Assembly: GCF_008642335.1 (NCBI RefSeq)
Contig: NZ_CP029191.1
Coordinates: 1,736,001 to 1,800,000, forward strand
Reading direction: 5' to 3'
DNA: 64,000 nucleotides
Origin: Streptomyces venezuelae
GTDB taxonomy: Bacteria > Actinomycetota > Actinomycetes > Streptomycetales > Streptomycetaceae
Position numbers and translations under genes: made by a program. The notes below the pieces were generated by a model. It made no database searches, was not told where the DNA came from, and worked only from the letters and a program-made list of their open reading frames with translations. Positions 11,604 through 45,185 of this stretch are shown piece by piece. How positions within the stretch are numbered: position 1 is the first letter of the stretch; every line of letters begins with the position of its first letter.

Positions 11604-11841
11604 GGACTCTCCCTAGGCGTGCACGTTTCTGATTCACGTCCATATCTCTGAACAGCACCACGCTAAGGCGCCCCATCGGCGCCGGTCAAGCGGCTGAACT
11701 GCCCGCGGCGAGACGGACACACCGCCCCCCACGTCTCCTTGACGCCACTCGGCGGAGATCCTTAACCTGCCACTCGTCCATACATGTGAATCTCGTACGC
11801 GCATGAGTACGCGCGCACGTACGCCGCCCGAGGAGACCCGC

Positions 11842-12651
11842 ATGCCCGCTCCCCGCACCGTCCTGCTCACCGGCGCAGCCGGCGGCCTCGGCACCCTGAT
11901 GCGCGGCCTCCTGCCCGCGTACGGCTACGACCTGCGCCTGCTGGACGTCCGCCCCGTCGACGGCGAGCCGGACGCCCGCAAGGCCGACCTCGCCGACCGG
12001 GACGCCCTGCGCGACGCCGTGCGCGGGACCGACGCCGTACTCCACCTCGCGGGCATCTCCCTGGAGTCCACCTTCGACAAGATCCTCAAGGCCAACATCG
12101 AGGGCACGTACCACCTGTACGAGGCGGCCCGCGAGGAAGGCGTCCGGCGGATCGTCTTCGCCTCCTCCAACCACGCCGTGGGCTTCACCCCGCGTCCCCA
12201 AGGCGACGATCCGCTGATCCCGGTCGACACACCGCGCCGTCCCGACACCTTCTACGGCCTGTCGAAGTCGTTCGGCGAGGACCTGGCCCAGTTCTACTGG
12301 GACAAGCACGGCATCGAGACCGTGTCGGTCCGCATCGGATCGTGCTTCCCCGAGCCGACGAGCGTGCGGATGCTGTCGGTCTGGATGAGCCCCGAGGACG
12401 GCGCCCGGCTCTTCCACGCGGCCCTCACCGCCGAGGACGTGCGGCACACCGTGGTGTACGGCTCGTCGGCCAACACCCGCCTGTGGTGGGACCTCTCCTC
12501 CGCGCGGGCGCTCGGTTACGACCCGCGGGACGACTCCGAGCAGTACGCGCCGAAGCTGCTCGCCGAGCAGGGCGAACTGGACCCCGCGAACCCGGACCAC
12601 GCACACCTGGGCGGCCACTTCTGCACGAACCCGCCGGTCTGGCCGTACTGA
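11842..12651 (+). CDS. udh: Uronate dehydrogenase (NAD-dependent)
   Basis: A 269-residue extended short-chain dehydrogenase closely resembling Agrobacterium Udh, which oxidises D-glucuronate and D-galacturonate to the aldaro-lactones. It has the Rossmann motif TGAAGGLG, the early Asp DLADRDA, then VLHLAGIS, the long shared stretch RIVFASSNHAVG, the catalytic pair in FYGLSKSFGEDLA (YxxxK), VRIGSC, and the WW pair before the C-terminus. I chose the ATG at 11842 because GAGGAGACC lies correctly before it and the length then matches the family. An earlier ATG at 11803 lacks a ribosome site. With kdgD across the divergent promoter this supports an oxidative uronate pathway. Confidence 0.9.
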   Translation: MPAPRTVLLTGAAGGLGTLMRGLLPAYGYDLRLLDVRPVDGEPDARKADLADRDALRDAVRGTDAVLHLAGISLESTFDKILKANIEGTYHLYEAAREEGVRRIVFASSNHAVGFTPRPQGDDPLIPVDTPRRPDTFYGLSKSFGEDLAQFYWDKHGIETVSVRIGSCFPEPTSVRMLSVWMSPEDGARLFHAALTAEDVRHTVVYGSSANTRLWWDLSSARALGYDPRDDSEQYAPKLLAEQGELDPANPDHAHLGGHFCTNPPVWPY

Positions 12652-42515: not shown

Positions 42516-44807
42516 ATGATGCACAACATGCCGCCGAACCACCTCCCTACCCCGCAAGGAGCTCGTGAGCAGTTCGCGTCACTGTTGCAAGAAGAGCTCA
42601 AGGGGTTGGGCAGCCCCACGCTCGTCCAGATCGTGGAAGCCGGCCGCGCTCGCAGATCAGCGCCGCTCAACAAGTCCTCGGTAAGTGAATGGCGGCGAGG
42701 CAAAAGCCTGCCCGAGACTACAGAGCTCCTGGAGTCGCTGTTGTGCGCACTCGACCGCATATCCGGTGTACGAGGGCGCGTGGACCGCGAAGTATGGCTT
42801 CGCGCCTACGCCGCCGCACAGCGTGAGACACCTGTACCGTCTCTGACCCATCCCCTCACGGTGAGGGACGCTGGAGCCCTAGAACTCGGTGTGCACCGAG
42901 CTCAGTCCTTGGCGGGCATGACACTCGTGCCGTCATACATCCCCCGGGATCTGGACGGCCAGGTGCGCGGGGCACTCAGCCGGCTGATCGGAGAGGGCGG
43001 GATGCTTCTCCTCACTGGCGACTCCGCGGTCGGCAAGACGCGAACCGCGCACCAGGCCATGCTGGACACCGTTCCGGACCACGTGCTCCTGGCCCCGGAG
43101 AGCAGTACACACCTCGAGCGATCCATCGCCTCGGCAATTGATCACGCGTCGAGTGGCATTCCCACCCTGCTCTGGCTGAACGACGCCGAGCGGTTTCTGG
43201 GCCCTCAAGGTCTTGGCATGCAGGAGTTCCGTACACTCCGGTCCGCTCGTGTCGTCATCGTGGCCACCATGCGCGATTCGTTCCGACTGCGCCTGGTCAG
43301 GGAACGCGTCTCCGTAGACATCTTGAACTTGGCCGAAGAGATCCACCTCGAGCGCATCTGGTCTCCTGACGAACTGGCACGCACACGGAAGAGTCTTGAG
43401 ACGGAGCGCGACCCCCGCGTCGCGGAGGCCCTGCGGGCAGCGCGCGAACACGGGGTAGCGGAGTACCTGGCGGCAGGTCCTCAACTCTGGCGGGAGCTCC
43501 AGGAGGCGCCCCGGGTTCATGGGCACCCGCGAGGAGCAGCGCTGGTGCATGCGGCGATCGACCTGGCCAGGGCGGGGATCAGCAGCCCGATTTCGCTCCA
43601 GGACCTGACCGACCTCCACGAGGAATACCTCCCCGGCAGCAACAAGTCCCTCATCTCGCCCGAGTCGCTCGACGAGGCGCTGACCTGGGCCACGGAACCA
43701 CGCTACGGAGTCACGCGGCACCTGCTACCTGCGAGCGGCGGGTGGCACGCCTTCGACTTCCTGGTAGACGCCCAACTACGCAGAGAGCAGTCGCCTCCCC
43801 TGCCGGACCGGACTTGGGACGCAGCGCTGGCCATTGCGACTGAGGACCACCATCACCACGACGTGGCGCTCGCGGCCTTCGCAAACGACCGTCCAGACAT
43901 CGGAGACCGAGCCCTGGTCCCACTGGCGAAGAAGGGCAATGCGGTCGCCATGCGCTCCCTTGGGGTCCTTCACCGGAGAGCCGATCCCAAGCAGGCGAGG
44001 AAGTGGCTGAAGCGAGCGATCAACGCTGGTGACGTCGTGGCCATGCGACTGCTTGGCAACCAGCACGTCTTCCAGAATGAATGGGACAAGGGTGTCAAGT
44101 GGTACCGAAGAGCGGCCAAAGCCGGGGATGCCGAGTCCGTGGCCTACTTCTGCGAACCGTTCATCTACCAACAGCCGAACCCCACGGCGCCGCCCGCCCC
44201 CGACGACGAGGACTACGAGGAAAACAGCGAACCGTGGGCTCCAACTCCCCGCACGCTCAAGGTTCTTGAAGCAGCGCTGGATATCGCCTGCGACATGACG
44301 TACGACGAGATCGAGGAACACGGCGGCAAGCCCATGAAGGCCGGCAAGGTCAACAAGGGCTGGTACTTCATGCTCGGATACCTGCCGTCCCAGGCCTGGC
44401 GCCAGACCCGGCGATGGCGCCGTGAGTTCGCCCGATGCTACGACGATCTGGCCAACGACATCCGGACCGGACAGACACCTCGACCTACATGCACCGGGGA
44501 AGAACTGGCTCTGCACATCGCGCTACTGCACGCATCGGCGATGACGCTCGACGAAATGGATTTCGTCGACGAGCTGACCACCGGCCTACCTGAGTCATCA
44601 CAGGATTTCGACTGGGACGCGTGCAAGGACCTGCTCTTCGAGGACCACGACGTTCTCTGGCTCTACTGGCCCTGGATGTCAGGAATCGAAGATCCCGCGA
44701 ACCCAATCAACGAGTTCGCACGCGTCGCACATCTGCGGCCGGACGACTGGTTCCTGCCGTTTCGTGAGGCCCATACCCGAGATCCACACCGGGGACACCG
44801 TCGGTGA
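42516..44807 (+). CDS. HTH-STAND ATPase-Sel1 repeat protein, possible defence protein
   Basis: A 763-residue protein of visibly lower GC than its neighbours. The N-terminal 20-80 is helix-turn-helix-like (LNKSSVSEWRRGKSLPETTE). A P-loop NTPase of the STAND type follows: Walker A GDSAVGKT (168-175), Walker B TLLWLND (217-223), sensor-like VVIVATMRDS (246-254), then a helical NACHT/winged region. Sel1-like repeats occur around 466-545 (AVAMRSLGVLHRR, KWLKRAINAGDVVAMRLLGN, GVKWYRRAAKAGDAESVAY). The acidic linker (DDEDYEENSE) and an unrecognised 170-residue C-terminal domain end it. STAND proteins with repeat sensors often mediate antiviral or signalling responses. No ribosome site is evident. 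It is followed by a tiny membrane-protein gene. Confidence 0.85.
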   Translation: MMHNMPPNHLPTPQGAREQFASLLQEELKGLGSPTLVQIVEAGRARRSAPLNKSSVSEWRRGKSLPETTELLESLLCALDRISGVRGRVDREVWLRAYAAAQRETPVPSLTHPLTVRDAGALELGVHRAQSLAGMTLVPSYIPRDLDGQVRGALSRLIGEGGMLLLTGDSAVGKTRTAHQAMLDTVPDHVLLAPESSTHLERSIASAIDHASSGIPTLLWLNDAERFLGPQGLGMQEFRTLRSARVVIVATMRDSFRLRLVRERVSVDILNLAEEIHLERIWSPDELARTRKSLETERDPRVAEALRAAREHGVAEYLAAGPQLWRELQEAPRVHGHPRGAALVHAAIDLARAGISSPISLQDLTDLHEEYLPGSNKSLISPESLDEALTWATEPRYGVTRHLLPASGGWHAFDFLVDAQLRREQSPPLPDRTWDAALAIATEDHHHHDVALAAFANDRPDIGDRALVPLAKKGNAVAMRSLGVLHRRADPKQARKWLKRAINAGDVVAMRLLGNQHVFQNEWDKGVKWYRRAAKAGDAESVAYFCEPFIYQQPNPTAPPAPDDEDYEENSEPWAPTPRTLKVLEAALDIACDMTYDEIEEHGGKPMKAGKVNKGWYFMLGYLPSQAWRQTRRWRREFARCYDDLANDIRTGQTPRPTCTGEELALHIALLHASAMTLDEMDFVDELTTGLPESSQDFDWDACKDLLFEDHDVLWLYWPWMSGIEDPANPINEFARVAHLRPDDWFLPFREAHTRDPHRGHRR

Positions 44808-44966
44808 CGGCTTCCTTCCGGTCCGGAATTCCGTACGACCGTTGCTGACCTGCGGCTACAAGCCAGCACCGAACACACGACGAGCCGGCGGCCACAGGCA
44901 GCGCGTTCACTGAGAGACGCCAACGCATCCGAGCGATGGCCGATGTTCCCGAAAGGTATGTCCACA

Positions 44967-45122
44967 ATGGCCTCAGTCAGCGACATCATGCCCCTGCTCA
45001 TCGCGCTGGCGGCACTGGCACTACTCGTCTTGCTGGTGTGCACGTTGGTAGCCCTACGCGGCCTTCACAGTGAGCAACGCGTAGCCGTGTACCGCTCCTT
45101 CCTCCGTGCTCTTCGGCGGTAG
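44967..45122 (+). CDS. 51-residue single-pass membrane protein after the STAND gene
   Basis: A short reading frame beginning at ATG 44967 (or ATG 44943, giving 59 residues), with AAAGG about 10 bases upstream of 44967. The product starts MASVSDIM, has one strong hydrophobic helix (PLLIALAALALLVLLVCTLV), and ends in a basic amphipathic tail (RSFLRALRR). It ends 25 bases before a strong terminator hairpin. The lower-GC codon use matches the STAND gene, 159 bases upstream. A small membrane protein next to a STAND ATPase is compatible with a membrane effector. That is a hypothesis. Confidence 0.6.
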   Translation: MASVSDIMPLLIALAALALLVLLVCTLVALRGLHSEQRVAVYRSFLRALRR

Positions 45123-45146: not shown

Positions 45147-45185
45147 CCCTGTGGGGTGCCACTGGAACAGTGACACCCCACAGGG
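45147..45185. terminator. Strong bidirectional terminator
   Basis: CCCTGTGGGGTGCCACTG against its inverted copy at 45168-45185 (one mismatch), with a 3-base loop GAA. It lies between the small membrane gene and the end of the suf operon, whose final stop is at 45205-45207, so it can stop transcription from both sides. Confidence 0.85.

Follow-up and report, generated by a model that had tools for sequence, protein, structure and literature searches.

In known members of the STAND family, sensing at the C-terminus is coupled to an output at the N-terminus. In Streptomyces coelicolor the large SARP AfsR, a member of this family, carries a DNA-binding N-terminus, a STAND (NOD) core and a TPR domain and acts on the promoter of afsS through a box of direct repeats (PMC10936776), with AfsS being termed a small sigma-like protein (PMC2267785), according to the portions of these sources used here. 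Within the same limits MalT from Escherichia coli is reported as a STAND protein controlling transcription (PMC10427625) and Avs5 as sharing the STAND core and TPR/Sel1 motifs (PMC12931631), and Kaur and co-workers described STAND conflict systems of multicellular bacteria in which N-terminal peptidases or other domains are exchanged on the NTPases (PMC7159879, PMC8195603). The locus presented here lies in a window of 64,000 nucleotides from Streptomyces venezuelae (positions 1,736,001–1,800,000 of the single 8.05-Mb contig; coordinates below count from the first letter of the window) and combines a protein of the order HTH-STAND-Sel1 and C-terminal domain (CTD) with a tiny membrane protein. 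This arrangement was not found in the portions used of the two papers on conflict systems, and a small set of literature, searched by title and the start of the abstract, held no description of the pair.

The larger protein (42516..44807, plus strand like all its parts) has 763 residues. The P-loop GDSAVGKT (Walker A, residues 168–175, 43017..43040), the motif LLWLND (Walker B, residues 218–223, 43167..43184) and Sel1-like repeats had been read from the sequence in the first-pass annotation, and the frame and its motifs were confirmed. Both motifs fall into a STAND NTPase core at about residues 147–423 (42954..43784), which is supported by weak Pfam signals, the model and Foldseek, and are followed by Sel1/TPR-like repeat helices at residues 431–544 (43806..44147), visible as weak Pfam matches and in the model. 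Sel1 stays below the Pfam threshold, scoring 27.2 bits where 30.7 are required (E 5.6e-6), and the AAA_16, nSTAND3 and TPR signals are likewise weak, those of AAA_16 and nSTAND3 being weaker than Sel1. In the AlphaFold model from 26 sequences (mean pLDDT 82.9, pTM 0.59) five N-terminal helices, an alpha/beta NTPase, helical repeats and a helical CTD follow each other, with uncertain placement of the domains as the pTM is only 0.59. Top Foldseek matches of the model were SAMD9, Avs3, the archaeal STAND structure 6mfv, a microtubule doublet structure and CED-4, with E-values of 5.0e-8 to 5.5e-4 and low TM-scores of 0.08–0.22 for SAMD9, Avs3, 6mfv and CED-4, and dyneins and AAA+ proteins are found among the matches as well. 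With a second structure aligner AAA+ proteins (NSF, Trip13-type) came out on top, and EfAvs5 took rank 44. From its Walker A motif and the predicted STAND-type core fold the protein can be classified as a STAND NTPase.

At the N-terminus, where the first-pass annotation had seen an HTH-like region, residues 16–103 (42561..42824) show the motif SSVSEWRRGKSLP and five predicted helices (16–30, 36–42, 53–61, 69–83 and 91–103 in the model), and are taken as a putative XRE-like HTH, but Pfam does not recognize it. No Pfam HTH model scored above its cut-off, with HTH_31 appearing in only one of ten members at E 0.15, and a profile of the region found no HTH among PDB sequences; HTH-like stretches are among its best matches outside the family, none of them better than E 0.008. 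The same profile is present in all 18 STAND-CTD frames read from the loci described below. We also searched the first 300 residues of 97 proteins for the XRE-type recognition-helix pattern S-x-W-[RK]-x-G-x-x-x-P and detected it in 25, all among P0001–P0037; the 63 more distantly related proteins P0034–P0036 and P0038–P0097 lack it. AfsR differs in its OmpR-type DNA-binding and BTA domains, neither of which gave a Pfam match at E up to 1 in the 763-residue protein, and in having no CTD. MalT differs from the protein in the position and type of its DNA-binding domain and in its target genes, and it is not known to have a small membrane partner. Avs5 has a SIR2 effector, whereas the system described here combines an N-terminal HTH-like region with an undescribed CTD and has a small membrane protein encoded separately. 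No Pfam effector match was found at the N-terminus, the place of a fused effector being taken by the five-helix HTH-like region, and none of the curated defence models of PADLOC was matched.

Among 7,996 candidates scored in the protein database, 95 were relatives of the 763-residue protein. The more distant of them attach the same STAND core to a trypsin-like peptidase (Trypsin_2), to TPR or WD40 repeats or to DUF5753 or DUF5710, and Trypsin_2, TPR and WD40 on such a core resemble the conflict systems of Kaur and co-workers. In its own genome the protein has no close second copy, since the next-best match reaches E 1.8e-11 over residues 137–359 only. An alignment of the window protein with 25 of the 95 relatives is, by eye, best conserved in the CTD (residues 578–763, 44247..44804). 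For this domain, noted before as unrecognized, no Pfam or significant PDB match was found, and modelled separately it is helical with pLDDT 91 and pTM 0.89. Using two CTD peptide patterns against a collection of 84,980 species we obtained 64 loci, of which 17 have the CTD in one frame with a Walker A motif and 47 have it without STAND. The CTD is a domain of its own that is also present in other proteins, a point overlooked before. In a draw of 325 genomes from the class CTD matches occur in ten and the small protein in one, the genome of the window itself.

The window locus and the 17 fetched STAND-CTD loci fall into two groups. Nine (the window, L030–L035, L039 and L043) lie convergent to the suf genes, and nine (L036–L038, L040–L042 and L044–L046) share an upstream DUF255 gene, at a distance of no more than about 1 kb except in L038, where it is 4.9 kb. 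Walker B, for which hhhhD[D/E] is the pattern expected of a STAND NTPase, reads WLND, with N where most relatives have D, in seven of the nine suf-site loci (the window and six others) and WLDD in L030, L031, all nine loci of the second group and most distant relatives.

Downstream of the STAND gene, at 44967..45122 on the plus strand, a small gene codes for a protein of 51 residues with one membrane span and a conserved basic tail. From its first ATG the frame would cover 44943–45122 and 59 residues, and a further ATG is found at 44958, but comparison with the relatives favours the start at 44967, which is preceded by GAAAGG and gives the length proposed earlier. At all 17 fetched loci the relatives (49–77 residues across loci) likewise consist of a hydrophobic stretch and the conserved tail, and the start codon immediately upstream of the membrane span has a ribosome-binding-like site in front of it; in six second-group loci a start two codons on shares this site. 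Best conserved is the tail after the span, LRGL..(Q/E)R(V/I)..(F/Y), which the positive-inside rule places inside the cell, where it probably lies. That the frame is spurious and the pairing an accident of a common neighbourhood is hardly conceivable to us. A direct search of 5.8 billion predicted proteins found no relative of the 51-residue frame, which would agree with such an explanation, but the frame is conserved at two sites with different neighbours, has its ribosome-binding-like site at 17 of 17 loci and shows codon-position differences of 0.362/0.219/0.503 (suf-site loci) and 0.144/0.058/0.260 (second group), a pattern as expected for a translated frame. Conservation and codon constraint thus contradict the case, raised by the first-pass annotation against itself, that the small frame is not translated. 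Its strong terminator after the small gene was retained in part: between this gene and the convergent suf genes a hairpin is indeed present at 45147..45185 (RNA folding −33.3 kcal/mol, z −5.7), but it has no T run and was not called by a terminator scan, leaving it a probable terminator.

A small gene follows the STAND-CTD gene in all 18 loci (window and 17 fetched), and it was found in none of the 47 CTD loci without STAND, within the flanks examined, and in none of 12 loci whose STAND proteins are more distantly related and have no CTD (L012–L023, 1.5-kb flanks). Solitary homologues, which would have spoken against a pair, thus exist among distant relatives lacking the CTD but not among the 18 STAND-CTD loci. 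Searching 392 Streptomyces genomes with a profile of nine small proteins, we found the small protein in nine genomes, the same nine that have the STAND-CTD gene; in one of them, G050, the CTD part stayed below the threshold but is present in L045, a contig of identical length (12,328) that was taken as the matching locus. The hypergeometric value for this co-occurrence is 1.8e-18, a number that ignores the relatedness of the genomes. With 17 of 17 fetched loci the pairing is more than chance. The two-gene unit is rare and patchily distributed in Streptomyces, in contrast to a locus common to the whole genus, and the module suggested earlier, a STAND switch with a conserved tiny membrane protein, is borne out as an accessory one.

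A feature overlooked in the first-pass annotation is a near-palindromic element, located by alignment or script before all 18 small genes and followed by a second motif at fixed spacing. In the window it reads CCGGTCCGGAATTCCGTACGACCGTTGCTGACC (44818..44850, plus strand). The distance from its core to the start codon is 128–143 nt at all loci but one and 153 nt in L041, where two tandem copies exist and the script anchored on the upper one; the spacing to the second motif was measured in the other 17. In the suf-site group the most conserved intergenic block is CGGG-AAWW-CCCG followed by TGACCTG, and the second group has a nearly invariant TCCGGACCGGAAGTCCGGAC followed by YGACCAGG. The elements of both groups align in register with arms that change together, and the CCGGTCCGGAATTCCG of the window is intermediate between the two versions. 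From GGA to the YGACC-type motif the distance is 21 nt in nine of nine suf-site loci and 22 nt in eight of nine of the second group, L035 having GGCC instead of GACC in its second motif. The element stays with the small gene in the second group even though the gap from the STAND stop codon varies from 230 to 1788 nt, and also in L042, in which a frame that we read as transposase-like (L042:7664-9452) separates the two genes. No shared copy precedes the STAND start, where only L046 has a single match. RNA folding of the element was no better than that of shuffled sequences at three loci. In its own 8.05-Mb genome the element pattern matches exactly once, at this site. Among the 392 Streptomyces genomes it matches in 32, six of them at the module (G000, G050, G060, G115, G187 and G311), compared with four for the backwards control. 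Most genomes with a match do not contain the module, two module genomes (G102, G181) are matched only elsewhere and G213 not at all, as the module copies of these three deviate, and the pattern is therefore neither complete nor exclusive. Just before the STAND start codon L032, L033, L034 and L043 have a common stretch like TGTCAGTGC or TGTCAGTAC, perhaps the promoter of the STAND gene.

A rigid cis-element of this kind points to transcriptional control, and as for AfsR and afsS a conserved, putatively regulatory box precedes a neighbouring small gene; AfsS, described as sigma-like, is no membrane protein. With an HTH-like N-terminus and a single shared DNA site found, located in front of the small gene, transcriptional control of this gene by the putative HTH makes the simplest model. 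Our preferred reading, which we hold tentatively and with somewhat less than even confidence, is a two-gene NLR-like signalling module in which the HTH-STAND sensor controls the gene of the tiny membrane protein, possibly as part of conflict or defence. A ligand sensed by the CTD together with the Sel1-like repeats would free the ATPase to oligomerize, as in other members of the STAND family, and the XRE-like HTH, which occupies the place of other domains in relatives such as the trypsin-like peptidase, would then act on the near-palindromic element and turn on, or release, the small gene. Its product would span the membrane and alter the state of the envelope, in all likelihood to arrest growth or damage the membrane within an immune-like response; infection as the trigger and harmfulness of the small protein are both suppositions of this model. 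The strict pairing, the element and the HTH profile at 18 of 18 loci, the STAND identities at the suf site that disagree with those of SufS (see below) and the AfsR-afsS precedent speak for such a switch, but Pfam does not recognize the HTH, the element pattern also matches outside the module, and the pair of the window has neither a phage homologue nor a PADLOC match. Alternatively, the element could serve as a promoter belonging to the small gene and read by an alternative sigma factor, and the HTH would then play no part. If the preferred reading holds, NLR-like STAND receptors gain a new output, the transcription of a dedicated membrane protein, and within one superfamily a link would arise between the antibiotic-regulator type (AfsR) and the immune type (Avs).

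The main rival, possible but in our opinion doubtful, keeps one module as well and explains the best-conserved tail of the small protein and the strict co-occurrence by direct contact: the STAND protein would bind the cytoplasmic tail of a membrane anchor or pore-forming effector in an Avs-like abortive response, with the element as a dedicated promoter only. The resemblance of the STAND fold to Avs3 and Avs5, among others, would suit this, but an HTH-like domain holds the N-terminal position, the separate fixed regulatory element would need its own explanation, and the two genes are up to 1788 nt apart in L042.

The nine suf-site loci share their place beside suf, which had also been overlooked. 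SufT/SufU DNA is present in 61 of 61 genomes drawn, and among 30 same-side suf flanks, which fall into ten similarity groups (the largest with 13 members), the STAND gene occurs in two, L120 and L103, the latter being the window, and seven contain an SMR pump; the suf flank is thus a variable slot beside a fixed operon. The lower GC content reported for the pair is seen against the upstream side (61–68% versus 63–78%), but the contrast to the suf side is small, as that region has 63–74%. Between suf-site loci SufS is 89–99% identical, compared with 38–77% for the STAND proteins, and the order is discordant: L030 and L031 share 97.6–98.1% of SufS with L039 but 44.7–45.8% of the STAND protein, whereas L034 and L039 share 91.6% and 74.9%, respectively. 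Allele replacement at a fixed slot would explain these pairwise identities better than uneven rates. Extended to an immune receptor and a tiny membrane killer linked by a conserved operator in place of protein contact, with the CTD sensing a ligand and divergent alleles being swapped beside suf, the preferred reading becomes rather unlikely as a whole.

The fast discordant evolution at one site and the presence in nine of 392 genomes would be unusual for a housekeeping regulator and weigh against an ordinary AfsR-like accessory regulator that serves development, secondary metabolism or the response to envelope stress and has no part in conflict, as does the fact that relatives of the STAND core vary in their N- and C-terminal domains and that partial matches to the protein are common on actinobacterial plasmids (81 plasmid records). 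For such a regulator AfsR-afsS is a direct precedent in Streptomyces, and the suf, DUF255 and haemolysin-III surroundings are no evident defence islands; we regard it as unlikely. Of the expectation that such pairs sit in variable loci or next to defence genes, the first part fits the slot beside suf; for the second, no defence island is evident at this slot or where DUF255 and haemolysin-III genes are close by, the neighbours having been read unsystematically. On one plasmid (L153) the STAND-like gene begins 7 nt after the gene of a 144-residue protein that has no Pfam match.

PADLOC assigned no family to either window protein at E up to 1 nor to the relatives P0011 and P0018 at E up to 0.001, and no homologue of the pair was found in phage records at E 1e-5. 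A candidate antiviral role of the pair, as proposed from its architecture, is plausible. In seven of the nine second-group loci an intact gene matching Pfam Uma2 directly precedes the STAND gene, and the copy of L040 matches the PADLOC candidate family PDC-S03. This could be taken as a two-part defence module with the Uma2 nuclease and the small membrane protein as exchangeable outputs, but two loci (L038, L041) contain only a Uma2 remnant and yet keep both the STAND and the small gene, and the Uma2 loci also keep the small gene, so the two are not alternatives and this explanation appears highly improbable.

Roughly 20 nt separate the end of the intact Uma2 gene from the STAND gene in L036, L037, L040, L042, L044, L045 and L046, and at 11668-12225 L042 contains another copy of Uma2. 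In L044 the small gene is directly followed by the gene of a DUF4365 protein (L044:12183-12953) that matches the PADLOC family Aga_REase-PNTD1-PNTD2 at E 4.6e-9. At three loci (L037:13278-13463, L042:11267-11434 and L046:12413-12568) the first 52–62 codons of the DUF255 gene recur on the downstream side of the module, oriented like the full gene, and possibly the module is set between DUF255 direct repeats as a trace of insertion.

Regardless of the mechanism, the locus brings to view a tiny membrane protein family absent from the result of the 5.8 billion protein search and, with the CTD, an actinobacterial domain without Pfam match. In the 47 loci without STAND (L047–L093) many actinobacterial proteins end in the CTD or consist of it, none of ten scanned ones having a Pfam match better than E 0.1, and at least two N-terminal parts recur, of the CEHT..KSRV and the HVHRL..ARVRATR type. 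In L081 and L085–L089 the CTD lies in the middle of the protein and is followed by a further part of about 270–280 residues.
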